In this document: one piece after another, positions 1-19,482 of the stretch | How positions within the stretch are numbered: position 1 is the stretch's first letter | Layout: every line of letters starts with the position of its first letter | Origin: Acidobacteriota bacterium | GTDB lineage: Bacteria > Acidobacteriota > Terriglobia > Bryobacterales > Bryobacteraceae | Assembly (NCBI GenBank): GCA_026394095.1 | Contig: JAPKYY010000211.1 | Span: 1 to 19,482 of the forward strand | Direction of reading: 5' to 3' | DNA: 19,482 bases | Program-made: the position numbers and the translations under genes | The notes under the pieces: generated by a model | Seen by the model: the letters and a program-made list of their open reading frames with translations, nothing else | Told to the model about the DNA's origin: nothing | Databases searched by the model: none

Positions 1-2994
1 CGTGAGCGGACTATCCCAAACTGTCAGTAGCTGCCGGGCTGCTTGCGGGTCGGCCTTGAAGCGAGCCAGGTTCTTGGCGTGCAGTTCGCTCAGAACCGTT
101 TTCTCTTCTGCTGTAGCTGGCCGGCTCAAGGCACGCTCAAAGGCCCAGTCGATTTGTTGACTCAGCGTCTTGCCACCTTCACTAAGCATCTTCTGCGCAA
201 AGACTCTGGAAGCCTCTACATAAGTAGGATCATTCAGCAGAACCAGAGCCTGCAGCGGAGTGTTCGAGTTGCTCCGGTTGACGGTGCACTCTTCCCGCGA
301 AGGCGCATCAAAGGTCATCAGGCTCGGATGCAAAAAGGTGCGCTGCCACTGTGTGTAAAGGCCACGGGCGTAAAGGTCCCGTCCCTTGCTTGCTGCATAA
401 TCGCGTTTGGGGAAGTTGAGCGAAGCAAGATAACCTTCAGGCTGATAGGGGCGAACACTCGGGCCGCCGAAGCGCTCCGTGAGCAGTCCGGCACTAGACA
501 AAGCAAGGTCATGCACAACTTCGGCATCCACCCTTACCCGAGCCTGACGCGCCAGCAGGCGATTCTCAGGGTCTTTCTCCAGAGCTTCCTTGGCAGGGAC
601 AGAGCTTTGACGGTAAGTCTGGCTCAGCACAATCGACCTGACCAGTCGGCGGCTATCCCAGTCGCTGCGAAACTCGCTGGCAAGATGATCGAGCAGATCA
701 AGGTTCACCGGGCTTTCCCCTTGTGAGCCAAAGTCGTCGAGCACCTTGGTAATACCGGTGCCAAAGAAGAGGCGCCACATCCGGTTCACCTGAACACGAG
801 CCGTGAGCGGATTGTCTTTCGAGACAATCCAGTTGGCAAGGTCAAGCCGTGTAGCGCGGCCACTGGTATTTAGCTTGCCGAATTTGACAGGGATGGCCGG
901 CTCAACAATCGGGCCTGTTTCATCGAGAAAGTTCCCGCGCGGAAGAATGCGCGTCTCTGCTGGCTCAACAGCTTCTGTTGCCAGCACCTTCGGGATAGCA
1001 GCATCGAGATAAAAGCGCTGCTGCTCCAGGCGAGCGATCTCGTCCAACCCACCTTCCATCCACAGTCGGTGCTGCGGCAGGGTCTTTGGGTCGATCTCGC
1101 CCTCTTTGCGTAGCGCCTTCACTACAGGCTCCGGCAGGCCACCAGGGTTCTTACCATCCTTATTGCGGGATCCAGTTGTGTCCGTGCCTTCAGGCCAGGA
1201 GTGCTGGCCACTCGTGAGAGCCACGCGGAAGCGGCCAATCACCGCCTTGCGCGTAATTGAGTCATGACGGATCTTCACCGTGATGGTGTCATTGCCGTTT
1301 GCAGTAAAGCCTTCTTTAAGTCGAAGCGCCAGAAAGGGATTCTTGTTTTCGCCATAGGTAAGCACGCCCCAGCCTGTATTGGGGTCGTTGTCGATGGCAG
1401 AAAGTGGCGGCTGTTCCCACGAAGGGTCAGAGATGTTCGAAGTCGCGCTGCTGAATGCGAGGGCCTTTTTACCGTGGAGCACTTCCACCTCCGTAACCAC
1501 AAGCCGGTCCCCACCACGTGAGATGCCGTTGCTGGGCAGCGTGTCGTCCTGCACCACCTCAAGGCCGAAGGCCGTGTAGGTGCCTGCTGCGGGCTTGAAG
1601 GTGACGGTGTAGGTTTCGTTGTCGGGGTTCAATCCGCTGGCCACAATGAGGCCGTTACCAGGGGCGCGGTATTGCCGCAAGATGCCGCCGACATAGGGCA
1701 TCATCTCGATCTCTTCTTCGTTGTAGATCTTGAGCGTGGCGCCGTTCTGTGAGGCGGCTGTAAGAGGGCGCTGGATCTTCCAGGCGAGCTTGCCCGCTTC
1801 GTAATCCGCGAGCAGTTGCTTCTGCCAGGCTTCGTCGGTGGCCTTGGGTGTGCTGGCCTTCTTGATTGCCTCGATCCGGGCAAGGATTGCGTCCATCTTC
1901 TGCTTCTGTTCGGGGCTGGGCAGAGGCATCACGCTACCCCAGGCCTTGCTGCCACGGTCCGGCACGAGGCCCGTTTCTTTGATGTCGGCAAAGAAGGCCT
2001 TCATCGCGTAGAAGTCTTTGGCCAGCAGCGGATCAAACTTGTGATCGTGGCATTCCGCGCAGCCGAGCGTCGCGCCAAGCCAGACGGCTGACACGGTACG
2101 CACGCGGTCCGCACCGTATTTGGCCAGATATTCCTTGGGCTGCAAGCCACCTTCAGCAGAAGTGCGATTGAGGCGGTTGAACGCAGCCGCAACCTTCTGA
2201 TCGGTGGTCGAGTTAGGCAACAGGTCACCGGCGAGTTGTTCGCGAGTGAAGACATCAAAGGGCTTGTTGTTCAGGTATGAGTTGAGGACGTAATCGCGAT
2301 AAGGCCACGAAGGATAAAGGTTATCGCCGTGAAAGCCGGAGGTGTCGGCGTAGCGCACGGCATCCAGCCAGTGCATGGTCATCTTCTCGGCATGGGCTTT
2401 GGAGGCAAGCAACCGGTCCACCAGCTTTTCATAAGCATTGGGCGTTTTGTCGGCTAAAAATTGGTTCACCTCTATCGGGGTGGGCGGCAGGCCAGTGAGG
2501 TCCAGCGTCACACGACGGATCAGCGTGCGCCGGTCTGCTTCAGGGGCCTGCTTGAGGCCAACCTGGTTAAGCCGCGCCTGCACAAAGCTGTCGATTGATT
2601 TGCCTTCAGGCTTGCGGATAGGCTCATAAGCCCAGTGGCCTTCGTAGACGGCACCTTCGGCCACCCATCGCCGGATCGTGTCCTTCTGTTTGTCTGTGAG
2701 TTCCTTATGCGCCGAAGGAGGAGGCATCAGCCGGGCAGGGTTCGCATGAAAAACACGGGCAATGATTTGAGACTGGTCGGGGTTGCCAGGGACGATCGGC
2801 GTCCGCCCGGCGCGATTAGCCTTGGTGGCTTCTTCCCGGATATCGAGGCGAAGGTTGGCCATCCGCGAACTCTGGTCCGGCCCGTGGCAACGAAAGCAAG
2901 TGTCGGCCATGATCGGTCGGATGTCACGGTTGAAACTGACCGGCGATTGTGCAAGTACAGGGGCAGAGAGAGCCAGAAATACGAAGAGCCTCAT
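1..2994 (-). CDS. PSCyt1-PSCyt2-PSD1 domain protein (secreted, cytochrome-c-like), 3' end beyond window
   Basis: The minus-strand frame is open from an ATG at 2994 to base 1 with no stop (998 codons). The first 15 residues are a hydrophobic signal peptide ending in VLAQ. A CxxCH haem-binding motif at residues 33-37 (CFRCHGPD) sits in a Planctomycete-type cytochrome C domain (PSCyt1, about 20-110). A PSCyt2/DUF1549 domain follows (about 135-345) with a second motif CAECHDHK at 312-319, then a linker/beta-rich region (about 435-600), then a PSD1/DUF1553 domain (about 710 to the edge) containing NPLTARVQVNRMW and NSNTPLQALVLLNDP. By comparison with the family only a few dozen C-terminal residues are missing. 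The family is secreted and its substrate is generally unknown; complex-polymer degradation or redox roles have been proposed. It lies 29 bases downstream of the phosphatase gene on the same strand and may be cotranscribed with it. The identity is clear, the function is not. Confidence 0.9.
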   Translation of the reverse strand, partial: MRLFVFLALSAPVLAQSPVSFNRDIRPIMADTCFRCHGPDQSSRMANLRLDIREEATKANRAGRTPIVPGNPDQSQIIARVFHANPARLMPPPSAHKELTDKQKDTIRRWVAEGAVYEGHWAYEPIRKPEGKSIDSFVQARLNQVGLKQAPEADRRTLIRRVTLDLTGLPPTPIEVNQFLADKTPNAYEKLVDRLLASKAHAEKMTMHWLDAVRYADTSGFHGDNLYPSWPYRDYVLNSYLNNKPFDVFTREQLAGDLLPNSTTDQKVAAAFNRLNRTSAEGGLQPKEYLAKYGADRVRTVSAVWLGATLGCAECHDHKFDPLLAKDFYAMKAFFADIKETGLVPDRGSKAWGSVMPLPSPEQKQKMDAILARIEAIKKASTPKATDEAWQKQLLADYEAGKLAWKIQRPLTAASQNGATLKIYNEEEIEMMPYVGGILRQYRAPGNGLIVASGLNPDNETYTVTFKPAAGTYTAFGLEVVQDDTLPSNGISRGGDRLVVTEVEVLHGKKALAFSSATSNISDPSWEQPPLSAIDNDPNTGWGVLTYGENKNPFLALRLKEGFTANGNDTITVKIRHDSITRKAVIGRFRVALTSGQHSWPEGTDTTGSRNKDGKNPGGLPEPVVKALRKEGEIDPKTLPQHRLWMEGGLDEIARLEQQRFYLDAAIPKVLATEAVEPAETRILPRGNFLDETGPIVEPAIPVKFGKLNTSGRATRLDLANWIVSKDNPLTARVQVNRMWRLFFGTGITKVLDDFGSQGESPVNLDLLDHLASEFRSDWDSRRLVRSIVLSQTYRQSSVPAKEALEKDPENRLLARQARVRVDAEVVHDLALSSAGLLTERFGGPSVRPYQPEGYLASLNFPKRDYAASKGRDLYARGLYTQWQRTFLHPSLMTFDAPSREECTVNRSNSNTPLQALVLLNDPTYVEASRVFAQKMLSEGGKTLSQQIDWAFERALSRPATAEEKTVLSELHAKNLARFKADPQAARQLLTVWDSPLT

Positions 2995-3023
2995 GCCCCC
3001 ATTCTATGTTTGTTGACGATAGT

Positions 3024-3788
3024 TTAGAGGCCGAGGTAACGGCGAACTTCGGGCTCCATCCCAGGGGCGCAGGCAACACCATTGCCCTCATAGATCGAAT
3101 CCTTGCCGTTGAGGGCAAAGAACTTCGCCCCCGCTTCGCGAAGAATACAGGTAGGCGCGCAAAGATCCCACGGGGCGACACTCGGTTCCATCCAGATTTC
3201 CATGCGGCCACTGGCCACCAACATGGCATCGTAAATTCCCCCAAAGACGCGCACACACCAGAAAGTCGATAGCCATTCAAGCAGCGGCAATCCAAAAGGT
3301 GGGTTCACCGCAGCAGTAAGCTTGTTGACGCAGATCACCGCCTGCTTGGGGCTGTCGATCGTGCTGGCCTTGATGGGCGTGCCATCCCAGAACGCGCCAT
3401 GGCCCTTGGCGGCATAATACATTTCACCCAGCATCGGCAGGTAGCAGATGCCTACAACCGGTTCGCCCTTCTCTTCGAGGCCAATCAGAATCGCCCAGAG
3501 GCGGTTGTTGCGTACAAAATCCCGCGTGCCGTCGATCGGGTCAATAATCCAGCGGCGGCCGCTGCTGCCCTCGCGGCTGGCGCCTTCCTCACCGAGAAAA
3601 CCATCTTCAGGAAAAGCCTGAGAGAGGATGCTGACGATCAGCCTTTCGCTCTCCTTATCGGCACGGGTCACAGGCGAATCGTCAGATTTGGTTTCGGCGA
3701 CAACGCCCTGGTTCAAAATGCGGATGCAGGCCTCACCCGCCTTACGGGCGGCTGATTGTGCAAAGAAAAGTTCACTTTCGTAGTTCAT
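3024..3788 (-). CDS. Inositol monophosphatase / histidinol-phosphatase family phosphatase
   Basis: The 254-residue product matches the Mg-dependent, lithium-sensitive phosphatase fold of the IMPase family, whose usual length is about 250-270. Visible motifs are the acidic GEEG at 66-69, the metal-binding signature WIIDPIDGTRDF at 80-91 (D83, D86, G87, T88), and the second signature PWDLCAPTCILREAG at 206-220 with D208. These supply the usual metal ligands. The Arg after DGT is more like histidinol-phosphate phosphatases (HisN type) than classical SuhB, but the substrate cannot be settled from sequence. The frame stays open upstream into the antisense of the next gene; I chose the ATG at 3788 because the conserved N-terminal helix starts there and the upstream extension has no family resemblance. 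It is divergent from the acyl-CoA synthetase with only 27 bases between the start codons. Confidence 0.9.
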   Translation of the reverse strand: MNYESELFFAQSAARKAGEACIRILNQGVVAETKSDDSPVTRADKESERLIVSILSQAFPEDGFLGEEGASREGSSGRRWIIDPIDGTRDFVRNNRLWAILIGLEEKGEPVVGICYLPMLGEMYYAAKGHGAFWDGTPIKASTIDSPKQAVICVNKLTAAVNPPFGLPLLEWLSTFWCVRVFGGIYDAMLVASGRMEIWMEPSVAPWDLCAPTCILREAGAKFFALNGKDSIYEGNGVACAPGMEPEVRRYLGL

Positions 3789-3815
3789 GCAAAACGGGAT
3801 GATAACATCGTCCAA
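3789..3815. promoter_or_regulatory. Short divergent intergenic region with possible extended -10
   Basis: Only 27 bases separate the divergent ATGs. On the plus strand a TGA spacer followed by TAACAT (3800-3808) resembles an extended -10 element. A start site 7-8 bases later would fall on or next to the ATG at 3816, which would give a leaderless transcript. No Shine-Dalgarno-like sequence precedes that ATG. No convincing -35 box is present. The call is inference from spacing and a weak hexamer match. Confidence 0.25.
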
Positions 3816-5567
3816 ATGAGTACGCGTACCGTATTTACAGCACTGGAAGAAGCAGCAGCCAGGTATGGTGATAGCACTGCCTTGATTCAACCCATGGGCG
3901 GCGGCAAAAACGCTACCTATTCGTGGAATCAATACAAGCAAATCGTTCAGGAAATTACCTGTGGATTGCGATCTCTGGGCATTGGGCGCGGCGACGTTGT
4001 TGCCATCCAGAGTGAGACGCGTGCAGAATTCTACTTCGTCGACATGGGCATTATCTCGAACGGCTCCACCGCAGCGGCAATGTACACCGTCTACCCGCAG
4101 GGCGAAGCAATTGCGAAACTGAACGCCTGCAAGGCGAAGCTGGCCTTTGTCGAAAACCCCAAAATGCTCGCCACACTCGCAGCAAGTCTGTCCGGGGCAG
4201 AGCCCATGGACATCCGCTGGGTACTGATGACGGGTAAAGCCGATGATGTCATGACCCTCGATGACTTGCGCGAATTGGGCCGCAAGGCAATGTCTGCCGA
4301 TCCACAACTCTTCTCGCGAATATATGTGGAAACAAAGCCAGAAGATTGCGCGATCATCTATCTGACTTCGGGCTCGACGGGCGAGCCAAAGATGGGCATG
4401 GTGACCCACCGCGCGATTGTCTCAAACGTAGCTGCAGCACCAGCCGTGCTGCCACTGGGCCCAACCGACATTACAATCGCCTTCCTGCCCAGCGCCCACA
4501 TTACCCAACGACTGGTCTTGCAGTTGATGCCTTTGGCCTTTGGCATGGTGATCTATTTCAGCGAAAGCTTGTCCAAGTTGCCAAAAGAAATTCAAAGCGT
4601 GCAGCCCACCTTCCTGCTGGCCCCACCGCGGCTCTGGGAGCGCATCTACACCAACGTGGTAACCGAGATGAAGAAAAAGCCGCCCCTCGTGCAAAAGCTC
4701 TTCCACGGCGGCCTCGGGCTGGCACTGAAAGCGATGGATTACAAGCGGGCAGACAAGTCCGTACCCTTCTGGGTAAGCACGCCCCTCGGTTTGGTAGACA
4801 AAGTGATCTTCAGCAAAGTGCGAGAGAAGCTCGGCGGCAAGATCAAGCTGGCCGTCTCGGGCTCAGCTCCATTGGGCAAAGATCTCGCGAATTTCTTTGG
4901 TGCAATTGGCGTCAATCTGATCGAAGGCTTTGGCTTGACCGAAGGCGGCGTGACCCACATCAACCCGGTGAAGAAGCCCATTGTAGGGTCGATCGGGAAA
5001 CTACTGCCAACCGTGGAATGCAAGCTGATGCCGGATGGGGAAATTGCCCTCAATGGCCCAACCTTGTTCAGTGGCTATTACAACGACCCTGAAGCCACAG
5101 CCAAGGTCTTTGCCGACGGCTGGTTATTGACCGGCGATATTGGTAGCGTGGATGCAGAGGGCTACTGGTACATCACCGGTCGCAAGAAAGAAGTACTGGT
5201 CGCATCCAATGGCAAGAAGATTTATCCAAACCGCATTGAAGGCATGTTCAAGGGAGAATCTTTGATCAGTCAGGTAGTCTTGGTTGGCGACAAGCGGTCC
5301 TTTGTGACTGCCTTGTTCAGCTTGAATCCAGCGGTGGCTGAGGCCGCGGCAGAGCCGGCAGAAGAAGTAATTCAGCGGCTGGTGAAAGAAGTCAATCGTA
5401 AGGTGGAGCCGCACGAGCAGATTCGCAAATTCAAGATTCTGCCCCGTGAACTTTCGATCGATCATGGCGAAGTGACCCCTACAATGAAGATCCGCAAGAG
5501 CATCGTGTTTGAACACTTTGCGGCTGAGATCAATGAAATGTATGCAGGCAAAGAGGAGATGAACTAG
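3816..5567 (+). CDS. AMP-forming long-chain acyl-CoA synthetase
   Basis: The 583-residue product is an ANL-superfamily adenylating enzyme that converts fatty acid, ATP and CoA to acyl-CoA, AMP and pyrophosphate. Motifs in order: phosphate-binding loop TSGSTGEPK at 184-192, GFGLTE at 371-376, TGD at 439-441 (ribose-binding Asp441), hinge GRKKE at 455-459, and a C-terminal catalytic Lys at 558 in GEVTPTMKIRKS. It belongs with the long-chain synthetases by its length and GRKKEVLVASNGKKI. The loop is slightly unusual: the Gly that normally follows PK is Met193, with Gly at 194. The ATG at 3816 begins a family-like N-terminus; earlier in-frame non-ATG starts would run back into the divergent phosphatase gene. 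It is first in a plus-strand unit with PPK2 and an old yellow enzyme. Acyl chain preference is not predictable here. Confidence 0.93.
   Translation: MSTRTVFTALEEAAARYGDSTALIQPMGGGKNATYSWNQYKQIVQEITCGLRSLGIGRGDVVAIQSETRAEFYFVDMGIISNGSTAAAMYTVYPQGEAIAKLNACKAKLAFVENPKMLATLAASLSGAEPMDIRWVLMTGKADDVMTLDDLRELGRKAMSADPQLFSRIYVETKPEDCAIIYLTSGSTGEPKMGMVTHRAIVSNVAAAPAVLPLGPTDITIAFLPSAHITQRLVLQLMPLAFGMVIYFSESLSKLPKEIQSVQPTFLLAPPRLWERIYTNVVTEMKKKPPLVQKLFHGGLGLALKAMDYKRADKSVPFWVSTPLGLVDKVIFSKVREKLGGKIKLAVSGSAPLGKDLANFFGAIGVNLIEGFGLTEGGVTHINPVKKPIVGSIGKLLPTVECKLMPDGEIALNGPTLFSGYYNDPEATAKVFADGWLLTGDIGSVDAEGYWYITGRKKEVLVASNGKKIYPNRIEGMFKGESLISQVVLVGDKRSFVTALFSLNPAVAEAAAEPAEEVIQRLVKEVNRKVEPHEQIRKFKILPRELSIDHGEVTPTMKIRKSIVFEHFAAEINEMYAGKEEMN
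5552..5558 (+). promoter_or_regulatory. Ribosome binding site for the PPK2 gene
   Basis: AGAGGAG lies inside the last codons of the acyl-CoA synthetase gene, 9 bases before the ATG at 5568. It supports that ATG, which directly abuts the TAG stop of the previous gene, and suggests translational coupling. Confidence 0.65.
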
Positions 5568-9544: not shown

Positions 9545-11326
9545 ATGAATGCTGAACAGGTTCGAGAGCGCTACGCGGGACGGGTGAATGCCCTGGAGAC
9601 CAGAAAAGCTGAGGCTGAGAATGCTGCGGCCTCTTCCGGCTTGCTGATGATTGGATTGGGTGTGGCCGCAATTGCCAGCATCTACTTTGCGGTGCAGGGA
9701 GAGTTGAATTGGTGGTTGGCCGTGGCACCGCTTCCCTTGCTTGTCTTCGCAATCAGGCGCTTTAACGCCAGCCGAGATGAGGTTGGGCGACTCGCTCGCG
9801 TCTTTCGCTGGTATGAGCGTGCCATGCAAAGAGTGGCAGGGGAGTGGGTTGGTGTTGGTGCTTCGGGCGAGCGCTTTGAAGAAGCGGAGCATCCTTATGC
9901 AAGTGATTTAAGCTTATTCGGCGAGGGGTCGCTCTTTCAGCTGGTGTGTACTGCCCGCACTACGATTGGTGAGCTTGGCCTGGCAAGGTATCTCAAGGAG
10001 CCCGTAACGCTTGAGGAGAGCCGCTTGCGCCAGGAGGCTGTACTCGAGTTGCGCGAGATGTATGAACTGCGCGAAAGCGTGGTGGCAATGGGACGCTTTG
10101 AATCCTTTGAGTCGCGTTGGGAGACCTTCATTGAATGGCTGGAATTGCCGCCAATGAACTTTCACCCGATGTTGCGGGTGGGAATGATGGTCACTGTTTC
10201 CATCCTGATCCTGCTCGTGGCGGCCGGTGGATTCAAGTTTCTGAGTTGGGAGGCTGTGGCGCGGTTTGCAGTGCCGGTACTCGGAATTCAGGCAATGGTG
10301 GGGCTACAGTTTCGAGACCGCATCAGTCAAATGCAGGCCTGGCTGGGATCGGTATCAATTGAGGCAGAAGTCCTTCGCGATGGATTGGAACTACTTGAGA
10401 AACAGAATTTTAAAAGCGCAAAGCTTATTGGCCTGGTGGCCCGGGTCAAGGGCAGTGGCGCTGCGGTTCGGCACCTCGAACGGCTGCTGAGCGCGATGAG
10501 TGAACGCAACAAGGATTGGTTTTATTTGCCTTCTCTTGTTTTGGTCTTAGGTACTCAATTGGCGATTGCCATCGAAACCTGGCGGGCCAGAAATCAGGCA
10601 GCACTTCCGGACTGGCTGGCGGCGTGGGGCGAGTTTGAGGCGCTGCAATCCCTGGCGACTTATGCTTTGGAAAACTCGGACAACGTGATGCCCGAACTGG
10701 TTGCCGGTGAGGTTGTCTTTCGCGGAACAGCGATTGGGCATCCGCTCTTGCCGCTGGAATCCTGCGTGCGCAACGACATCGCCTTTGATGCCTCAACGCG
10801 GCTCTACATCATCAGTGGTTCCAATATGTCGGGCAAGAGTACGCTGCTGCGGGCGGTTGGAATCAACGCCGTACTGGCTTTTGCCGGAGCTCCCGTGCGG
10901 GCGACTGCGTTGCAGGTATCGGCGCTATCTGTGTGTGCCTCGCTCAGCATTGTCGATTCGCTGCTTAACGGCAAGTCGAAGTTCATGACCGAGATGGACC
11001 GATTGCGGATCATGATCGAGCGTGCCCGGGCAGGCGATGCTGTGTTGTTTCTGGTGGATGAGATTATGAGTGGCACAAATTCCCGGGATCGCCGCCTGGC
11101 CACCGAAGCAGTGGTGAAGACGCTGCTACAGCATGGGGCGATTGGTGCTCTTTCCACTCACGATCTGGCGTTGACTGAAATCGCCACTGAGGACTTGCAC
11201 GGCGTGAATGTACACATGTGCTCAAAAGGAAATGGTGACCCGCTGGACTTCGACTATACGTTGAAGCCCGGGGTCACCACGGAATCAAATGCGATGGCGA
11301 TTGCCCGCCTGGCTGGTGTCGCCTAG
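9545..11326 (+). CDS. Membrane-anchored MutS-family ATPase (MutS-related protein without mismatch-recognition domain)
   Basis: The 593-residue product ends in a MutS-type ABC ATPase domain: Walker A GSNMSGKST at 425-433, signature and Walker B LFLVDEIMSGTNSRDR at 501-516, and H-loop STHD at 537-540. A MutS core-like helical region (about 118-330) precedes it. The N-terminal mismatch-binding and connector domains of MutS1 are absent. Instead there are two hydrophobic segments near 32-50 and 56-70, and others near 210-228, 240-254 and 327-343, implying a membrane protein with a cytoplasmic ATPase. It is therefore unlikely to do classical mismatch repair; the function of such membrane MutS homologues is not established. 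I chose the ATG at 9545; a GTG two codons earlier is possible. It is monocistronic and its TAG stop shares the bases CTAG with the stop of the convergent amidohydrolase gene. Confidence 0.88.
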   Translation: MNAEQVRERYAGRVNALETRKAEAENAAASSGLLMIGLGVAAIASIYFAVQGELNWWLAVAPLPLLVFAIRRFNASRDEVGRLARVFRWYERAMQRVAGEWVGVGASGERFEEAEHPYASDLSLFGEGSLFQLVCTARTTIGELGLARYLKEPVTLEESRLRQEAVLELREMYELRESVVAMGRFESFESRWETFIEWLELPPMNFHPMLRVGMMVTVSILILLVAAGGFKFLSWEAVARFAVPVLGIQAMVGLQFRDRISQMQAWLGSVSIEAEVLRDGLELLEKQNFKSAKLIGLVARVKGSGAAVRHLERLLSAMSERNKDWFYLPSLVLVLGTQLAIAIETWRARNQAALPDWLAAWGEFEALQSLATYALENSDNVMPELVAGEVVFRGTAIGHPLLPLESCVRNDIAFDASTRLYIISGSNMSGKSTLLRAVGINAVLAFAGAPVRATALQVSALSVCASLSIVDSLLNGKSKFMTEMDRLRIMIERARAGDAVLFLVDEIMSGTNSRDRRLATEAVVKTLLQHGAIGALSTHDLALTEIATEDLHGVNVHMCSKGNGDPLDFDYTLKPGVTTESNAMAIARLAGVA

Positions 11327-12612
11327 TTGGGGCGCTGACGGTATTTGTCGTAGAGCCGGGTATGCTTGGATTCCAGGCTCTGCTGACGGCCCTGGATGAA
11401 GAGCATCTTGATGTCGGTTTTGACTTCAAGCGGATCTCCATTGGTGACCAGGATATCGGCATACTTGCCCTTCTCAATCGAGCCGTACTTGTCTCCGATA
11501 CCCCAGATCTCTGCGGCACTCAGTGTGATTGCCTTGAGTGCTTCATCGTAGGGCAGGCCGTAGGATGAGGCGCTGGCTGCTTCAAACGCGATGTTGCGGG
11601 CGAACTGATTCTGGAAGCTGCCGAAGGCGAACTTGACGCCAGCCTTGTGGAGCTGTGAGGGTAGTGAGTAGTTGAAGTCGTAGGACATGTCTGCCTCAGG
11701 CGGCAACTGAGTTACCGGGCCGAGAATGCAGGGGATCTTCTTCTTCGCAATCTCTTCTGTCGCCTTGCCTGGCTCGCGTACGTCGGCGAGGATGATCTTC
11801 ACTTTCTCCTCTTCTGCGAACTTGATGGCAGCGAGGATTTCACGCTCCTTGGATGCGGTGATCATAAGGGGAGCCTTGCCTTCAAAGAGCGGGATCATCG
11901 CATCAAAACGAACGTTTGTCTTGAGCCCCGGGGTCTTGGCAGTTTTGGCCTGCATGTAGGTGCGGGCTTCGCTGAAGAAGCGCTTGATCTCCTGCATCTG
12001 TGTGTCGAAGCGGCGCTTGGATTCAGCGAATGAGCCACGGCTGAACTGGAAGGTGTCGAAATCAAAAGTGCGCGATTGCATTGTGGGGAAGCGCATCTGA
12101 TAAGCCGCAGTGCGGTTGATCTCCATCTCTTCATAGGTATAACCGTCGAGGTGGATCAGAGCCGCCTGACCCATGATGATGCCGGTGCCGCCACCGCCGA
12201 AGCCGCCTCCGCCAGGGAGTGTCAGGACGGTTGAGATGCCGTTGGCGCGAACAACCGGTATGTGTTCAGTCTCAGGGTTGATGGCGACGATGGCGCGGAG
12301 TTGCGGGTTGAAGTCACCAAGCTCACCGGTATCGTTGGTCTCGCGGATCGAGGAGATCTCAGAGAGGCCGATGTTAGTGGCTGAGTTGATGATGCCGGGG
12401 TAAACCTGCAGGCCTTTGCCATCAATGACGCGGACGCCTTTCGGGGCGGACTTGGCACCGATGTCGGCGATCTTGCCGTCTACGACCAGCAGGGTGGTGT
12501 TGTCGATCTTGGGGCTCGAGACGGGAAAGACCGTTACGCCCTTGAGAAAGAAGCTGTCTTTGTCGCTGGCGAAAAGAGCAGCGCTAACCAGGAGAATACT
12601 CAGGAAACGCAT
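11323..12612 (-). CDS. Secreted amidohydrolase-like protein lacking metal-binding histidines (paralogue A)
   Basis: The 429-residue product has a Sec signal peptide (MRFLSILLVSAALFAS) and the amidohydrolase/imidazolonepropionase-like layout: N-terminal beta sandwich with DGKIADIG, then a barrel, then the C-terminal signature LSAAEIWGIGDKYGSIEKGKYADILV (about 364-389). The HxH metal motif after the first strand is replaced: PGIINSATN at 72-80 has Ala78 and Asn80 where the middle paralogue has His. The second histidine pair is also lost (Met250, Thr252), as is the catalytic Asp (Phe333). It is therefore probably non-catalytic. A glycine-rich loop (GGGGFGGGG, 134-142) precedes the segment GIIMGQAALIHLDG. 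It is third in the minus-strand operon and has its own strong ribosome binding site. I rejected a longer frame start at 12720, which lacks a signal peptide and overlaps the previous gene. Confidence 0.87.
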   Translation of the reverse strand: MRFLSILLVSAALFASDKDSFFLKGVTVFPVSSPKIDNTTLLVVDGKIADIGAKSAPKGVRVIDGKGLQVYPGIINSATNIGLSEISSIRETNDTGELGDFNPQLRAIVAINPETEHIPVVRANGISTVLTLPGGGGFGGGGTGIIMGQAALIHLDGYTYEEMEINRTAAYQMRFPTMQSRTFDFDTFQFSRGSFAESKRRFDTQMQEIKRFFSEARTYMQAKTAKTPGLKTNVRFDAMIPLFEGKAPLMITASKEREILAAIKFAEEEKVKIILADVREPGKATEEIAKKKIPCILGPVTQLPPEADMSYDFNYSLPSQLHKAGVKFAFGSFQNQFARNIAFEAASASSYGLPYDEALKAITLSAAEIWGIGDKYGSIEKGKYADILVTNGDPLEVKTDIKMLFIQGRQQSLESKHTRLYDKYRQRPN

Positions 12613-12613
12613 G

Positions 12614-13942
12614 TTATTGGGGCCTCCTTGTGGCCGGAGTCTGCCGGCGCAGTTTGTCTTCGAGCGCTTTCTTCTGCGCTTCGATCTTGACGCGGGCACT
12701 GGCGTCGTCATCGCGGTCAAAGTACTTCACGCCGTCGATGTAGACCTGCTGGGCACGGGCGAAGCTCGAGAGCGGGTGCTTGTCCCAGATGACGAAGTCG
12801 GCGTCTTTGCCAACTTCAATCGAGCCGACATACTTGTCGACCTGGAGGTGGATGGCCGGGTTGATCGTAACCAGCTTGAGTGCCTCTTCTTCGGTGAGGC
12901 CACCGTACTTCATCGTCTTGGCAGCTTCAGTGTTAAGGCGGCGGATGGTGTCGGCGGAATCTGAGTTCACGCTGGCGAGGACGCCTTTGCGGGCCATGAT
13001 GGCCATATTGTAGGGGATTGCGTCGTAGGCTTCGATCTTGAAGGCCCACCAGTCGCTGAAGCCTGCTCCGGCCGAGCCGTGCTTGGCCATTTCTTTGGCA
13101 ACTTTGTAGCCTTCGAGGATGTGCTCGAAGCTGGTGATCTTGAAGCCAATTTGCTCAGCGATTCGGATCATCATCAGAATCTCGTCAGCCCGGTAGGCGT
13201 GTACGTGGACAAGGCGCTTGCCTTCGAGTACCTCTACGAGCGGCTCCAGTTGGAGGTCGCGGCGCGGCGGAATCACTGCTTCGCCTTTGGCCTTTTTGGC
13301 TTCGTAGTCTTTCCAGGACTGGCGATATTCTTTGGCTTTCGTGAAGGCCTCGACGTAGACATCTTCGATGCCCATGCGGGTGGCAGGGTAGCGGAGAGTG
13401 TTGACGTTGGCTGCACCGACGCGGCCACCGGTGGGGTTGCCCTGGCGCTTGGGGTTTTCGCCAAGGGCGAATTTGATGCTGGGTTGGGCCTTATCCCAGA
13501 ACATCTCCTCGGCCTTCTTGCCCCAGCGGAGCTTGATCAGGCTGTTCTGGCCGCCGATGGCGTTGGCGCTGCCGTGCAGGACGTTGGCGATGGTGGTGCC
13601 GCCGGCGATGGCGCGGTAGATGGCGACGTCTTCGGGGTTCAGCACATCTTCGATGCGCACCATGGAGGAGACCGAGATGGAACCTTCGTTGATCGAATCG
13701 GCAGCAATGTGGGAGTGGCTATCGATGATGCCGGGCAGGATGAACTGGCCCGAGGCGTCGATGACCTTGGCGCCGGGCGGCACCATCACTTTCTCGCCAA
13801 CCTCTTTGATCTTGCCGTTCTCGACGAGGATTGAGCCCTTGATGGTGCCCTTGGTTACGGTAAGGATGTTGGCGTTCTGGACGACCAGCGGGGGATCGGC
13901 CGCGAGCAGGAGACAAGGTAGTAGCAGGAGTGAAAATTTCAT
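12614..13942 (-). CDS. Secreted metal-dependent amidohydrolase (imidazolonepropionase-like), intact active site
   Basis: The 442-residue product starts with a Sec-type signal peptide (MKFSLLLLPCLLLAAD). It keeps the amidohydrolase ligands: HSH at 76-78 in PGIIDSHSH, a likely carboxylated Lys137 in SLIKLRWGKK, HVH at 246-248, His274 in FEH, and Asp328 in NSDS. The C-terminal segment GSIEVGKDADFVIWD is the usual return to the beta sandwich. The family hydrolyses amide or cyclic amide bonds with one or two metals; a secreted peptidase-like or cyclic imide/dipeptide substrate is plausible but not shown. Its ATG overlaps the TGA of the upstream paralogue by 4 bases (ATGA), and GGAG (13951-13954) lies 8 bases upstream. 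One base separates its stop from the next start. The C-terminus is a charged, Lys/Arg-rich tail. Confidence 0.9.
   Translation of the reverse strand: MKFSLLLLPCLLLAADPPLVVQNANILTVTKGTIKGSILVENGKIKEVGEKVMVPPGAKVIDASGQFILPGIIDSHSHIAADSINEGSISVSSMVRIEDVLNPEDVAIYRAIAGGTTIANVLHGSANAIGGQNSLIKLRWGKKAEEMFWDKAQPSIKFALGENPKRQGNPTGGRVGAANVNTLRYPATRMGIEDVYVEAFTKAKEYRQSWKDYEAKKAKGEAVIPPRRDLQLEPLVEVLEGKRLVHVHAYRADEILMMIRIAEQIGFKITSFEHILEGYKVAKEMAKHGSAGAGFSDWWAFKIEAYDAIPYNMAIMARKGVLASVNSDSADTIRRLNTEAAKTMKYGGLTEEEALKLVTINPAIHLQVDKYVGSIEVGKDADFVIWDKHPLSSFARAQQVYIDGVKYFDRDDDASARVKIEAQKKALEDKLRRQTPATRRPQ
12623..12629 (-). promoter_or_regulatory. Strong ribosome binding site for amidohydrolase-like paralogue A
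   Basis: On the minus strand AAGGAGG, a full anti-16S match, lies 10 bases before the ATG at 12612 and within the end of the preceding gene. It decides the start of paralogue A against the longer upstream frame. Confidence 0.75.
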
Positions 13943-15270
13943 CGTGAGAACTCCGGACGTTGGGGTGTTTCTTCTGGTGCGGGGTCGAACTTGACGCCGT
14001 CAATCAGGACAAATTGCACGCGGGTGGAATCCTGGAAGAGATCTCCCTTTGTGATGGTGAGGTTCGCGATTTTGCCTTTCTCAATAGAGCCGAGTCGGCT
14101 TTGGATGCCGTAGATCTCGGCGGCTGAGAGGGTCATGGCTCGCAGTGCTTCGGCTGCAGGGAGGCCAGCGTCAATGGCCTTCTTCACCGCGCGGATGGTG
14201 GCAGCGGGAGTGTCTACTCCGATGCTCGAGAAAGTAAACTTGACTCCGGCTTTGGCGAGGACGCCGGGTGTCGAGGCAGCTTTATCGCGCAACTCCAGCA
14301 CCTTGATGTCCTCGTGATCTTCGGGGTCCTGATCGCGTGGGGCTTCGGGCCAGCGCAGGTTGACGATTGCAGCCACTCCGGCTTTGGCGATCTCGTCGCC
14401 GCGACGGAAGCCTTCATGCAAGCCGTAGAGTACCGGCTTGGTCGGGAAGTCTTTTGTGAGGCGGATCATCCGGTCGATTTCATATGCGCGTACGGCAGGG
14501 AAGAGTGTGCGTGGGGCTTCGATGATGCCTTCGAGAGCGCGCTCATAGGCGGGCCGGGCCAGTTGCGGGTTCTTCGCGAACATCTCGTTGGCCGACTTGT
14601 AATGCTCGGCGTCGATGTAGGTTTGGCGCAGGTAGGCGATGACGCCCATCAGCGAGTTGGGGAAGCCTCCACCGCGGTTGGTGGCAAGGGTCGTGTAGAT
14701 CCCAACTGAGGGTGCGACGATCATCTGCCCGGCGCGCTCGGCAGCCAGGTTGATCACCGCACCTTGACCGGCGAAGATACCGGAGGTGGGGAAGGTGACG
14801 GCGCTGGTGAAGCCGGCGGCGCGTGCCAGCGGCAGGCGGCGGTCTGTTGTCTTGACCAGGTCTGCGGCTTTGATCCAGGGCGTGGTGAGGGGACGATCTT
14901 CAGGCCCACGCGAAATGGTTGCCGCAGGTGCCGGTGCCGGGCCGCCAGCACCGCGGCCCTGAGGCAAAGCCAGACCTGCGGTGGGAGCTGCATCGAGACC
15001 GAGAGTGGAGAGGCCGTCGATGAGGCCCGGGTATACCGTGAGGCCTTCCCCTTCGATGATCTGTGCCCCTGCAGGCGCTGCGATCGATTCGCCAACGGCA
15101 GTGATAAAGCCGTCCTCGACAAGGACTGCGCCCCTGGCAAGAATGGGTCCGCTGACCGGGACGATTTTTGCGTTTCTGATGAGTATCGGAGGCCTGCCCT
15201 GCGCGAAAAGACCGGAGGCGGTCAGGGCGCAGGCGGCGGATTTGAGAAAATGTCGGCGCCGTATCGTCAT
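13939..15270 (-). CDS. Tat-exported amidohydrolase-like protein lacking metal-binding histidines (paralogue B)
   Basis: The 443-residue product begins with a twin-arginine signal (RRRHFLK at 4-10, hydrophobic stretch, LFAQ). The amidohydrolase layout is clear: DGFITAVGE, PGLIDGLSTLG (81-91) and the C-terminal LSAAEIYGIQSRLGSIEKGKIANL. The HxH motif is replaced by Leu87 and Thr89 and the second His pair appears as Pro258 and Val260, so metal-dependent catalysis is unlikely. An Ala/Pro/Gly-rich insert lies at 102-118. It is first of three paralogues in the minus-strand operon and overlaps the next start by 4 bases. The mix of Tat for this member and Sec for the other two is notable, since Tat usually exports folded proteins. 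Its start is 33 bases from the divergent purM. Confidence 0.87.
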   Translation of the reverse strand: MTIRRRHFLKSAACALTASGLFAQGRPPILIRNAKIVPVSGPILARGAVLVEDGFITAVGESIAAPAGAQIIEGEGLTVYPGLIDGLSTLGLDAAPTAGLALPQGRGAGGPAPAPAATISRGPEDRPLTTPWIKAADLVKTTDRRLPLARAAGFTSAVTFPTSGIFAGQGAVINLAAERAGQMIVAPSVGIYTTLATNRGGGFPNSLMGVIAYLRQTYIDAEHYKSANEMFAKNPQLARPAYERALEGIIEAPRTLFPAVRAYEIDRMIRLTKDFPTKPVLYGLHEGFRRGDEIAKAGVAAIVNLRWPEAPRDQDPEDHEDIKVLELRDKAASTPGVLAKAGVKFTFSSIGVDTPAATIRAVKKAIDAGLPAAEALRAMTLSAAEIYGIQSRLGSIEKGKIANLTITKGDLFQDSTRVQFVLIDGVKFDPAPEETPQRPEFSR

Positions 15271-16338: not shown

Positions 16339-16901
16339 AGCGTATCGGCATCCTGTTGAGCGGCCGCGGATCGAACTTTCAGGCGATCCATCGGGCGGTA
16401 GAACGGGGTGAGGTACAGGCCGAGATTGCCTGCGTGATCTCGAATGTGCCGGATGCGGGTGGCGTCGCTTATGCGCGAGAGAAGGGCTTGCCGGTGCATG
16501 CGCTTTCGTCTCGTGGGGTGCCGCGGGCCGAGTTTGATCAGCAGGTGATTCGGATCCTCAACGATGCCGGGGTGGATCTGGTGTGTCTGGCTGGCTATAT
16601 GCGGTTATTGAGCAAGGAGTTCATTGCTGCCTTTGCCGGGCGGATTGTGAATATTCACCCGTCGCTGCTGCCGGCTTTTCCTGGCTTGCATGCGCAGAAG
16701 CAAGCTTTTGATGCAGGGGTGAAGGTAACAGGATGTACCGTCCATTGGGTGGACGAGGGACTGGATACGGGGCCGATCATTGCTCAGGCCGAAGTTACAG
16801 TGCAGCCGGATGACACGGAAGAGACTCTTAGCGCACGAATTCTAGAGCAAGAGCACAGGCTGTATCCGGCCACGATTCAGGCGATTTTGCATCTAAGGTA
16901 A
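16335..16901 (+). CDS. purN: Phosphoribosylglycinamide formyltransferase 1 (GAR transformylase)
   Basis: The 188-residue product is PurN, which transfers formyl from 10-formyl-tetrahydrofolate to glycinamide ribonucleotide. The N-terminus ILLSGRGSNFQAI binds the ribonucleotide phosphate. The catalytic trio Asn106, His108 (NIHPSLLPAFPG) and Asp144 (VDEGLDTGPII) falls at the same numbering as the E. coli enzyme. The start is a GTG overlapping the purM stop by 4 bases, with AAGGTGA (from 16321) a suitable distance upstream. The protein is slightly shorter than the usual 200-215 residues but complete. PurN and PurM act two steps apart, with PurL between; no purL is in this window. Confidence 0.96.
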   Translation: MKRIGILLSGRGSNFQAIHRAVERGEVQAEIACVISNVPDAGGVAYAREKGLPVHALSSRGVPRAEFDQQVIRILNDAGVDLVCLAGYMRLLSKEFIAAFAGRIVNIHPSLLPAFPGLHAQKQAFDAGVKVTGCTVHWVDEGLDTGPIIAQAEVTVQPDDTEETLSARILEQEHRLYPATIQAILHLR

Positions 16902-16943
16902 ATTTCTGGCAGTATTTGGACAGCTTTTGCGCTTTAGTTGACT

Positions 16944-16952
16944 AGAGGAAGG
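16944..16952 (+). promoter_or_regulatory. Ribosome binding site for the protease-nuclease gene
   Basis: AGAGGAAGG lies 9 bases before the ATG at 16962, one of the best Shine-Dalgarno matches in the window, and decides this start over an upstream in-frame non-ATG codon at 16938. The rest of the 60-base gap after purN shows no clear promoter or terminator. Confidence 0.65.
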
Positions 16953-16961
16953 TGTAGATCC

Positions 16962-19070
16962 ATGCTCATTGATCGCTCCCTGATTGAAGGTTCTGCCAAG
17001 CGGCTGGACTTTTCCCCATCGAAACTAGACCAGACGCTCGGGGATGGCCCCCTTGATCTGAGCTCAACGCAAAGGTCGAAGAGATTCCGGCAGGTAACCG
17101 AAGAGAACCAGGACCCCGCGGTTGCGGCCTCAGCTCTTGAGCGGATCGTTGGCGGGAACGATCTTGTCGGGATCAATTACCTCTCGAAAGGTATGGCGGC
17201 ATCGCGGCCGGTTTGCCGGATTCAACTGAAGGACGCCAATTCGCGGCTGGTGGGTTATGCGACGGGCTTTCTGATTGGGCCTGGATTGCTGATGACCAAT
17301 CACCACGTGTTTGGGGTAGCCGGGGATGCGGTGAACTCGCTGCTGGATTTCGACTATGAGCAGGACCTGACGGGGAAGGATCGACCGCTGATTCAATTTC
17401 GACTGGCACCGAACCAATTCTTCTATGCCAACAAGCAGCTTGATTTTGCGGTGTGTGCGGTGAGCCCGAAGTCTGTTGATGGCACGCGGGAGCTGAAGGA
17501 TTGGGGCTGGCTCTTTCTGGACGGGGAGCCAGGGAAGGCTGACCTTGGTGAGTACCTGACGATCATCCAGCATCCGGCGGGGCAGAAGAAGCAGGTTTGT
17601 GTGCGTGAGAACAAGCTGTTGAAGCTTCAGGCAGACACGCTTTGGTATATGACCGATACGCTGGGCGGGTCTTCAGGCTCGCCGGCTTTCAACCGGTTCT
17701 GGCAGGTGGTGGCGCTGCATCATAGCGGGGTACCGAAGACGAATTCTAAGGGGCAGTGGCTGACTCGGGACGGCAAGGTGTGGATGGAAGGGATGGATGA
17801 ATCGCTGGTGGACTGGATCGCGAATGAGGGGATTCGAATCAGCTCGATCGTTAAGGATTTGAAGGCGAAGTTTGGGACGAATGCCGTGGTGAAGGCGGCG
17901 CTGGAATCGGGCCCGTTTGTGGCGAATGAGTCGGTATCTGTCTCGAGGCCGGCTGGCGCAAACTTGTGGGTGGAACAGGACGGGAGCGGCACGAGTCTGG
18001 TTGTGCCGTTGCGGATCCCGATTGATTTGGTGCAGCGGTCGATGCCCGCTGTGGTGAGTAGTGAGGACCCGGCTCCGGTGGTGGTGGATTCGCCTGGGGT
18101 GCTGGTTGAAGCGGTGAATATCGATCAATCGACGCTGGGTTCGCGGCCCGGGTACAAGCCTAATTTTCTCGGGAGCGGCAAGTTGCTTGTGCCATTGCCC
18201 AAGATTCCGGCTGGGCTGAAATCGCAGGTGGCGACACTTAGTGGCAAGGCTAGCGAGTCGGAGTTGAAGTATTTCAACTACAGCGTAGTGATGAACAAGA
18301 AGCGCAAGCTGGCTTTCTTTGCGGCGGTAAACATTGATGGTGATGGGCAACAGGATGTTGGCAAGCGCGAGGGTGATTCGTGGTTGCGGGATCCGCGGAT
18401 TGACGCTGCTGCGCAGGTTGGGGATGAGTATTACGGCAAGCAGAAATTGTTTGAAGTGGATCGTACGAAGAACCCCTTCGACCGTGGGCATCTGGTGAGG
18501 CGTCTTGATGCGACTTGGGGCAAGACGGTGGAAGAGGCGAAGATGCATGGAGATGATTCGTTTCACTTCACCAATTGCACGCCGCAGTTTTTCAAGTTCA
18601 ACCAGGGGGCGAAGCTGTGGCTCGGCCTTGAAGAGTTTGTTTTGGGCCAGGCGATTGATGGCAAACGGAAATTGTGTGTGATGAATGGGCCGATCTTTGA
18701 TGGCCCGGTGGCGCCGAAGGGCAAGTTGCCTAAGCCGGGCGGGAAGAAGGCTGCCGACCCGAAGTTTGGCGGGCTGCCGATACCGAAATTCTTCTGGAAG
18801 CTCATGGTTGGGGTGAAGGGCGGAAAACTGGCGGCTTCGGCCTATCTTTTGAGCCAGCAGGATCAGGTGCAGGGCATTGACCGCATTCATGAGTCGGATC
18901 TGCTGGAGAAATTGACTGCGGCCGAGGCAAGGGTCTTCCAGATTTCGATCGCAGATCTGGCGAAGTTCAGCGGCCTTGATTTTGGAGCGCTGGCTGCGGC
19001 GGACACGATGGTGGCGGCAGCAGGTGGGGTTCGCGAGATCCAGATGGTTGAGGAGATCGAGCTGCAATAA
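16962..19070 (+). CDS. Trypsin-like serine protease fused to DNA/RNA non-specific endonuclease
   Basis: The 702-residue product has two enzymatic domains. An N-terminal stretch ending in ALERIVGGNDLVGINYL (about 58-74) resembles the lead-in of bacterial trypsin-like peptidases of conflict systems. The protease domain (about 80-300) shows His115 in MTNHHVF, Asp161 in LDFAVC and Ser238 in GGSSGSP, a complete triad of the V8/HtrA-like type. A linker of about 100 residues with Pro/Val-rich parts follows. The C-terminal NUC1 domain (about 395-670) has DRGH at 507-510, with His510 as general base, and Mg-ligand Asn538 in FTNCTPQ, then FNQG and WLGLEEF. There is no signal peptide or membrane segment, so it should act in the cytoplasm, where both activities would be toxic unless controlled. 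Proteolytic self-activation is an attractive but unproved model. The gene stands alone downstream of purN. Confidence 0.93.
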   Translation: MLIDRSLIEGSAKRLDFSPSKLDQTLGDGPLDLSSTQRSKRFRQVTEENQDPAVAASALERIVGGNDLVGINYLSKGMAASRPVCRIQLKDANSRLVGYATGFLIGPGLLMTNHHVFGVAGDAVNSLLDFDYEQDLTGKDRPLIQFRLAPNQFFYANKQLDFAVCAVSPKSVDGTRELKDWGWLFLDGEPGKADLGEYLTIIQHPAGQKKQVCVRENKLLKLQADTLWYMTDTLGGSSGSPAFNRFWQVVALHHSGVPKTNSKGQWLTRDGKVWMEGMDESLVDWIANEGIRISSIVKDLKAKFGTNAVVKAALESGPFVANESVSVSRPAGANLWVEQDGSGTSLVVPLRIPIDLVQRSMPAVVSSEDPAPVVVDSPGVLVEAVNIDQSTLGSRPGYKPNFLGSGKLLVPLPKIPAGLKSQVATLSGKASESELKYFNYSVVMNKKRKLAFFAAVNIDGDGQQDVGKREGDSWLRDPRIDAAAQVGDEYYGKQKLFEVDRTKNPFDRGHLVRRLDATWGKTVEEAKMHGDDSFHFTNCTPQFFKFNQGAKLWLGLEEFVLGQAIDGKRKLCVMNGPIFDGPVAPKGKLPKPGGKKAADPKFGGLPIPKFFWKLMVGVKGGKLAASAYLLSQQDQVQGIDRIHESDLLEKLTAAEARVFQISIADLAKFSGLDFGALAAADTMVAAAGGVREIQMVEEIELQ

Positions 19071-19076
19071 GACGTG

Positions 19077-19112
19077 GCTGTGGTGTCGGCTGTGGTGTCA
19101 GCTGTGGTGTCA
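19077..19112 (+). repeat. 12-base tandem repeat, three copies
   Basis: Three direct copies of GCTGTGGTGTC(A/G) lie end to end; the first ends in G, the other two in A. They sit 6 bases after the stop of the protease-nuclease gene and just before the transposase-like remnant. No reading of them as part of a gene is supported. Confidence 0.85.
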
Positions 19113-19116
19113 GCAT

Positions 19117-19329
19117 CGATTGGCCTTGGCCAGCGAGAAGAACCGGATCAAGAAGGTGGTGCACGATGCTAACGTGAAGCTGAGTAGCGTGCTGACGAGT
19201 CTTTCCAGGGTATCTGGGCAAGCGCCGGAAGTGCTTCAGCAAGCCCTCGCCGAGCTTGGCGCAGGTTCAGCTGAGCCCAAGCGCGAGGGTGCCCGGAAAA
19301 AAGGCGCAGTTCGGCTGAAGGCTTACTGA
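19117..19329 (+). pseudogene. Decayed fragment resembling an IS110-family transposase
   Basis: The frame reading through to the TGA at 19327-19329 contains KNRIKKVVHDANVKLSSV followed by LTSLSRVSG. It resembles the middle segment of IS110-family transposases, typically of the form NR-x2-KVLE-x-ANIKL-x-SV-x-SD-x3-SGR. The similarity fades after APEVLQQALAELG into a basic tail. The start of the transposase, its N-terminal DEDD domain and its C-terminal domain are absent, and there is no plausible start codon with a ribosome binding site. I infer a short remnant of an insertion sequence that was deleted on both sides. It could instead be a small unrelated gene, which I consider less likely. Confidence 0.5.
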
Positions 19330-19482
19330 AGCAGTTCGTAAATATAAGCAAATTGTCAAATAACCTGCGCGGCGGCCAGAGGATTTGAGTCCCTGGTGGC
19401 ACTGCCCCGCGCGACTAGAGGTAGCTTTTGGCTTTGATCCTCGTTTTCAGTAGAGTTGCCGCTTGAAGTTGGAATCCCCACC
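19330..19482. other. Non-coding tail of the window with nested inverted repeats
   Basis: No gene is seen in these bases. A nested structure is visible: GCGCGG (19367-19372) can pair with CCGCGC (19407-19412), and inside it CCAG-A-GGA (19376-19383) can pair with TCC-CTGG (19390-19396) around a TTTGAG loop, with one bulged A. A short T-run (CTTTT) comes about 11 bases after the outer stem, too far for a typical intrinsic terminator. The structure could be a remnant transposon end, a small RNA, or chance in GC-rich DNA. The last bases do not fold as a tRNA end. Confidence 0.35.

Follow-up and report, generated by a model that had tools for sequence, protein, structure and literature searches.

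How a bacterium can keep a protease and a nuclease in one apparently cytoplasmic chain, with no immunity gene alongside, is the question raised by the right-hand end of a 19,482 nucleotide (nt) stretch of DNA, here called the window, from an Acidobacteriota bacterium of the Bryobacteraceae (contig JAPKYY010000211.1 of assembly GCA_026394095.1). The gene concerned is an intact open frame of 702 residues plus a stop codon (Table 1), in which Pfam places Trypsin_2 at residues 100-252 (E 2.5e-16) and Endonuclease_NS at residues 428-676 (E 2.8e-35). Having a catalytic NucA/Endonuclease_NS domain together with a trypsin-like peptidase, the protein is a new acidobacterial, solo member of the "NucA-trypsin" conflict system ("System 3") predicted by Kaur et al. 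(2020, PMC7159879), which according to the available portion of that paper can occur as a fusion in one protein. The answer favored here, with belief evenly balanced, is that this solo single-chain member is a zymogen processed at Glu60, whose protease would then cut the linker and free the nuclease.

Release by proteolysis is itself an already published idea, and what is new here is the V8-like zymogen reading. The same portion of Kaur et al. proposes that the nuclease is deployed or released by proteolysis, the defense role being likewise a prediction there, and it describes the fusions as mostly alphaproteobacterial, has a Table 1 entry of 45 for NucA, finds most of its systems to be without secretion features, treats EADs as the coupling modules of its conflict systems, and contains neither "zymogen" nor "acidobacteri". 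A 2021 paper (PMC8195603, also available in part) treats proteolysis as what activates the NucA-trypsin system. The window protein resembles the published system in joining a NucA nuclease to a trypsin-like peptidase in one protein without secretion features; unlike it, the window gene is solo, in that no EAD1, STAND or additional protease was found next to it, and its host is acidobacterial. Because these two papers precede it, a sequence-only reading of this locus, made by a model from the letters and proposing a latent nuclease freed by its protease in abortive infection, is a sound rediscovery rather than a new kind of system, and it is partly supported by what follows. No experiment on the NucA-trypsin system was among the literature titles found, in a search that mostly left out subscription papers.

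A V8-like protease, a conserved Glu60 and a linker

Both active sites are complete, as that reading had claimed: H115, D161 and S238 of the protease, and D507-R508-G509-H510 and N538 of the nuclease, lie where it had put them and do not vary across a 12-row alignment made up of close relatives and the window protein itself. In seven pairs the ratio of nonsynonymous to synonymous substitution (dN/dS) is 0.033-0.166 in the protease, 0.079-0.130 in the nuclease and 0.02-0.27 in the N-terminal segment; since it is low in both domains the gene is not a chance open reading frame (ORF), and its reality, integrity and purifying selection are confirmed. The absence of a signal peptide, also claimed earlier, is borne out by hydropathy, which shows neither a signal peptide nor a transmembrane helix (the best 19-residue mean starting in residues 1-22 is -0.05, and the highest anywhere in the protein is 1.28), and a cytoplasmic location is supported.

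The protease is V8-like, having the chymotrypsin fold, the triad, and the Thr/Ser190 and His213 of that group as Thr233 and His253, a numbering assigned in this analysis. It differs from the V8-like glutamyl endopeptidases (SspA/V8, Esp and Bacillus intermedius GEP) in being cytoplasmic and fused to a nuclease. The top Foldseek match is the protease domain of FAM111A (8s9k, E 3.3e-11), a human protein not known to be fused to a nuclease. FAM111A is an intracellular, autocleaving protease that depends on dimerization, according to the available part of PMC10920703. The protease domain also matches RT-Protease_XI of PADLOC weakly (E 8.5e-05); unlike that system, the fusion protein shows no reverse transcriptase family when scanned with Pfam. 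NCBIfam gives the protein no family, and a viral-structure search returned general protease and nuclease folds.

Evidence for processing at Glu60 comes from the fact that this residue is Glu in 34/34 aligned rows (a 36-row family alignment less L060 and L035, which are without the protease) and in 10/10 held-out proteins. The latter come from 10 of 113 matching plasmid records, eight more being already in the 36-row alignment; they include two close pairs and were added onto that alignment, on which they therefore partly depend. The S1-pocket residues Thr233 and His253 are as constant as Glu60. The Glu60 segment lies near the point where V8 proteases are cut for activation, and residue 61 falls at the mature N-terminus as extrapolated from VIA alignments to V8, Esp and B. 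intermedius GEP. Glu specificity is predicted rather than observed. The most probable site of a first cut is the N-terminal junction near Glu60 rather than the linker, which the sequence-only reading had named as a target along with an unseen inhibitor.

The nuclease is of the EndoG/NUC1 type, with the DRGH motif, the Asn metal ligand and an EndoG-type fold, and it shares its fold and sequence profile with Endonuclease G/CPS-6. EndoG is an apoptotic nuclease restrained by its compartment, the mitochondrion, and is not known to be fused to a protease. A divergent Bradyrhizobium subfamily of 708 residues (L043, L045) has D-F-G-H in place of D-R-G-H.

Between the two domains dN peaks in the linker (residues 301-392) in all seven pairs, with dN/dS there of 0.12-0.39. 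Of the 28 V8-like two-domain rows (the 34 rows minus L036, L058 and four HtrA-like rows), 23 have a Glu 12-14 residues ahead of the GY motif of the nuclease, as do 6 of 9 scored held-out proteins (L088, in which the start of the nuclease could not be located, is unscored). Elsewhere in these linkers Glu is present in 134/846 and 35/198 three-residue windows, respectively. In the window protein the Glu so placed is Glu383, a candidate cleavage site. A strand-like LVVPLRIPI-type motif within the otherwise variable linker occurs in 17 of 32 two-domain rows, against 1.2 expected by shuffling, with the pattern derived from the same rows on which it was scored; of the 15 rows lacking it, 10 have linkers of 80 residues or less and five have longer ones. 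It has no secondary structure in the first AlphaFold2 (AF2) model and could possibly be a latch or a peptide signal. The two AF2 models have predicted template modeling scores of 0.52 and 0.47, too low for placing the domains.

On the favored reading the cytoplasmic V8-like protease would be made as a zymogen and triggered, perhaps, by crowding or by dimerization through the N-terminal helices. The protease itself would cut the conserved E60-R61-I62 junction, and the S1 pocket would be completed by the new N-terminus, as happens in V8-like glutamyl endopeptidases. Once active, the protease would sever the disordered linker, perhaps following Glu383. The EndoG-like nuclease set free in this way, latent until then, would degrade the nucleic acid of its own cell, the presumed outcome being death of the cell or defense.

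Table 1. Features of the fusion gene and its product, in window coordinates (pLDDT, predicted local distance difference test)
Feature	Position	Strand	Basis
Ribosome-binding-like stretch AGAGGAAGG	16944..16952	+	sequence; 9 nt before ATG
Protease-nuclease fusion gene, 702 aa	16962..19070	+	open frame, Pfam domains
Residues 1-59: helical, variable N-terminal segment, candidate pro-segment	16962..17138	+	mostly low confidence in AF2 model; variable in family alignment
Residues 60-65, E-R-I-V-G-G: conserved junction, candidate activation cleavage site	17139..17156	+	Glu60 conservation; low pLDDT
Residues 64-317: chymotrypsin-fold protease, V8/FAM111A-like; H115, D161, S238; S1-pocket T233, H253	17151..17912	+	
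Residues 324-382: linker, probably disordered	17931..18107	+	pLDDT <50 throughout, about 30-34 at 331-380
Residues 346-354, LVVPLRIPI: strand-like motif inside linker	17997..18023	+	
Glu383: candidate release site directly ahead of nuclease	18108..18110	+	
Residues 393-702: NUC1/EndoG-type nuclease; D507-R508-G509-H510, N538	18138..19067	+	

Relatives, their neighborhoods and the case for independent domains

Scanning a single genome for each species found 29 loci, of which 28 are in Bradyrhizobium or other Bradyrhizobiaceae/Xanthobacteraceae (55-59% identity over nearly the full length) and one in a Bryobacteraceae metagenome-assembled genome (MAG) at 86% identity. In a tree of 35 proteins the window protein and that of the MAG are joined (100/100) and together form the sister group of the Bradyrhizobium clade (100/100 for the node uniting them). 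L032, a further acidobacterial protein with both domains, lies elsewhere with a Rhizobium gallicum protein (94/98); transfer between phyla is likely. The distribution is patchy. In a set of relatives 6/61 genomes have a match (three with both domains in this form, the window's genome counted, two HtrA-like or one-domain, and one TIR-NUC1); across the phylum 5/247 do, the four besides the window matching in one domain; in the Bradyrhizobium class sample 3/289, one being the Bradyrhizobium center itself; and in the Bradyrhizobium group 52/195, with divergent and one-domain matches counted. Of the 113 matching plasmid records, 29 align with 80% or more of the query at a single place, including records of Rhizobium, Nostoc, Paenibacillus, Cupriavidus and Nonomuraea (the last of 11.9 Mb). 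Phage records gave no match to the fusion protein, and carriage on viral contigs was confirmed for 0/16 candidates. One Bradyrhizobium copy (L062) is broken at about residue 249, its parts lying in overlapping, different frames (2923-4347 and 3596-5134).

Throughout the Bradyrhizobium clade the gene is single and at one conserved site, with ruvX to one side and gatC-gatA-gatB to the other (by eye, with no family search); the 86% relative has it flanked by an ABC-transporter gene and a TetR-like gene (also by eye). The close family therefore moves or persists without a partner. As for a dedicated immunity gene, none was seen, in agreement with the sequence-only reading; the only recurrent small neighbor followed, a 70-residue upstream ORF at 21 of 28 alphaproteobacterial loci, was rejected as an inhibitor, being present in 156/195 Bradyrhizobium-group genomes versus 52/195 for the query.

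More divergent relatives have other company. Eighteen plasmid regions were viewed with flanks of 8 kb or 3 kb, and 5 of the 16 that are annotated have conflict-type genes nearby: PLD, S1/P1 nuclease and CHAT in Rhizobium leguminosarum, PLD, patatin and pYEATS in Mesorhizobium, SIR2 in R. johnstonii, S1/P1 nuclease in a Rhizobium sp., and NACHT about 6.5 kb away in Nostoc. The other 11 have none obvious by annotation. In operons on two Rhizobium plasmids (L084, L090) the S1/P1 nuclease gene lies a few bases ahead of the protease, which in L084 is part of a single fused gene and in L090 is annotated as a gene adjoining that of the nuclease.

The same protease is found joined to EAD1 (L036), EAD11 (L058), TPR-S (L042) and an EEP nuclease (L039, L040), and the nuclease to TIR in a 386-residue protein of a genome of the same order (L035). 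In L058 the EAD11-trypsin gene overlaps an EAD11-NACHT-HEAT gene, and in L056 the gene immediately after a caspase-domain gene encodes a protein of 1799 residues in which PLD is combined with two trypsin-like stretches. Three Bradyrhizobium loci (L048, L049, L057) have, adjoining the trypsin-NUC1 gene, a protein of about 369 residues with 59-65% identity between loci; it matches SLOG-cluster-4 in L048 and L049, the two scanned singly, and is a possible nucleotide-sensing partner of the system. S1/P1 nuclease is also present in L049 and L057. A set of 136 neighbor proteins, drawn from around 18 loci (130 of 142 called there) with six added from plasmid loci, was scanned with PADLOC and Pfam, the matches listed covering the first 25 of 56 PADLOC and the first 25 of 137 Pfam families; among these, Trypsin_2 occurs in four, EAD1 in two and caspase in two, counts that carry no enrichment claim since the scan had no matched control set. 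PglZ, pAgo and capH are among the PADLOC matches listed, not assigned to loci. BrxL lies close to an HtrA-type relative (L059) and not the V8-like form.

This mixed picture bears on the alternative that protease and nuclease act independently, or form a stress-response enzyme that recycles nucleic acid, with no mutual control and no role in phage defense. The solo gene amid metabolic genes in both the window and the Bradyrhizobium clade is what this alternative would expect, as are the lack of relatives in the phage records and viral contigs, the retention of the nuclease without the protease in L060 and L035, and the 11 plasmid regions with no obvious conflict gene. It is nonetheless judged unlikely: EAD1, EAD11 and TPR-S modules are fused to members of this protease clade, the occurrence is patchy in all four genome samples, and some divergent relatives adjoin CHAT, SIR2, patatin or PLD genes. 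The conflict-system link that had been drawn from the sequence stands as to architecture, which is that of the published prediction. The divergent relatives give it a mixed picture, and the close orthologs do not bear it out, being solo amid genes read as housekeeping, in part a setting that the sequence-only reading had itself named as counting against it. The link of the window gene itself to defense is indirect.

Weighing the two cleavage sites

A number of observations weigh against the Glu60 zymogen and the release of its nuclease. SplB, an enzyme of different specificity, likewise has the Thr and the His; a review notes that His213 is common to Glu- and Gln-specific proteases and not key to charge recognition, and that V8 prefers Val as its N-terminal residue. 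After Glu60 the window protein has Arg where V8-like enzymes have Val, and several Spl chains start at model residue 65, not 61. The AF2 model is unsure around the junction (pLDDT <50 at residues 56-66), the 34 rows include four HtrA-like ones whose alignment at Glu60 is doubtful, and this residue may be structural. In the linker, a four-residue cleavage motif common to both sites was found in 18/28 training rows and in 0/9 held-out proteins, and protease-free L035 also has Glu at the linker-site position; because of these two results the site near Glu383 is only suggestive. Finally, none of the 14 window ORFs scanned with Pfam has a recognized defense domain.

A further objection is Asp232, at the trypsin-189 place, which is Asp in 30/34 rows and Ser in V8. 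It could mean Arg/Lys specificity, with the same family activated by a cut after R61 in a trypsinogen-like R-I-V-G-G, made by an Arg/Lys protease or a sibling protease, i.e. by a cascade in trans. An IVGG-like sequence does follow R61, trypsin-like proteins are among the listed matches of neighbors of some divergent relatives (the four of 136 noted above, one in L047), and a cascade is among the published ideas (Kaur et al. 2020, PMC7159879, in the portion available). However, residue 61 is Arg or Lys in just 22/34 rows whereas Glu60 is constant, Ser237 occupies the place of the Asp194 required for trypsin-type activation, and T233 and H253 match V8, so that this course appears quite unlikely. 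Very improbable is an exported effector or nutrient-scavenging enzyme using a signal-less route: NUC1 enzymes are often secreted, and one relative lies in a type II secretion operon (Cupriavidus plasmid, one of the 11 regions without a conflict gene) and one close to type I secretion genes (Rhizobium gallicum plasmid), but the window protein has no signal peptide or transmembrane segment and the 14 scanned window ORFs contain no secretion family.

The window and the meaning of a solo gene

The fusion gene is preceded by the ribosome-binding-like stretch that had been pointed out before, and an alternative TTG start at 16938 would add eight residues. Upstream lie a formyl transferase gene and an AIR synthase-like gene, presumably purN and purM, and farther left are amidohydrolases, a MutS_V protein, PPK2 and other metabolic-looking genes; three amidohydrolase-family ORFs adjoin one another on the minus strand at 11323-15270. 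The 14 scanned ORFs include no STAND NTPase or extra peptidase, which only some operons of the published system have, the contig apparently ending at 19482, 412 bases past the stop codon, where the locus (L001, 4021 bases) is cut. In the host's own genome, 88.9% complete, only the fusion gene matches Endonuclease_NS, and a search for EAD1, to which a subset of the published systems is coupled, found no match, control genomes being equally without one. No promoter or terminator was recognized by consensus within 16700-19482.

The mobile-element debris claimed for the right side is borne out in part. Two other contigs of the genome carry a partial match, one to 19353-19482 (89%) and one to 19359-19446 (91%), each segment having a single such copy. 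A frame of 69 residues (19120-19326) has one weak relative among 20 other genomes. By eye 19071-19482 is reminiscent of an IS110-type transposase end, an assumption with no confirming family search.

A fuller version of the favored reading is a self-timed death switch in one chain, in which a Glu-specific zymogen cuts at Glu60, so building its S1 pocket, then cuts at about Glu383 and frees the EndoG-like nuclease; it is possible though on the unlikely side. If true, it would be a bacterial counterpart of the caspase-to-nuclease cascade in a single polypeptide, with no separate inhibitor or partner, and its logic would extend more widely to those cytoplasmic proteases of V8-like type that carry EAD1, EAD11 or TPR-S. 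The solo version is the simplest NucA-trypsin form to test, one gene with two active sites, and its constant Glu60 junction makes a sharp prediction of how a cytoplasmic protease-nuclease may stay safe without an immunity gene.
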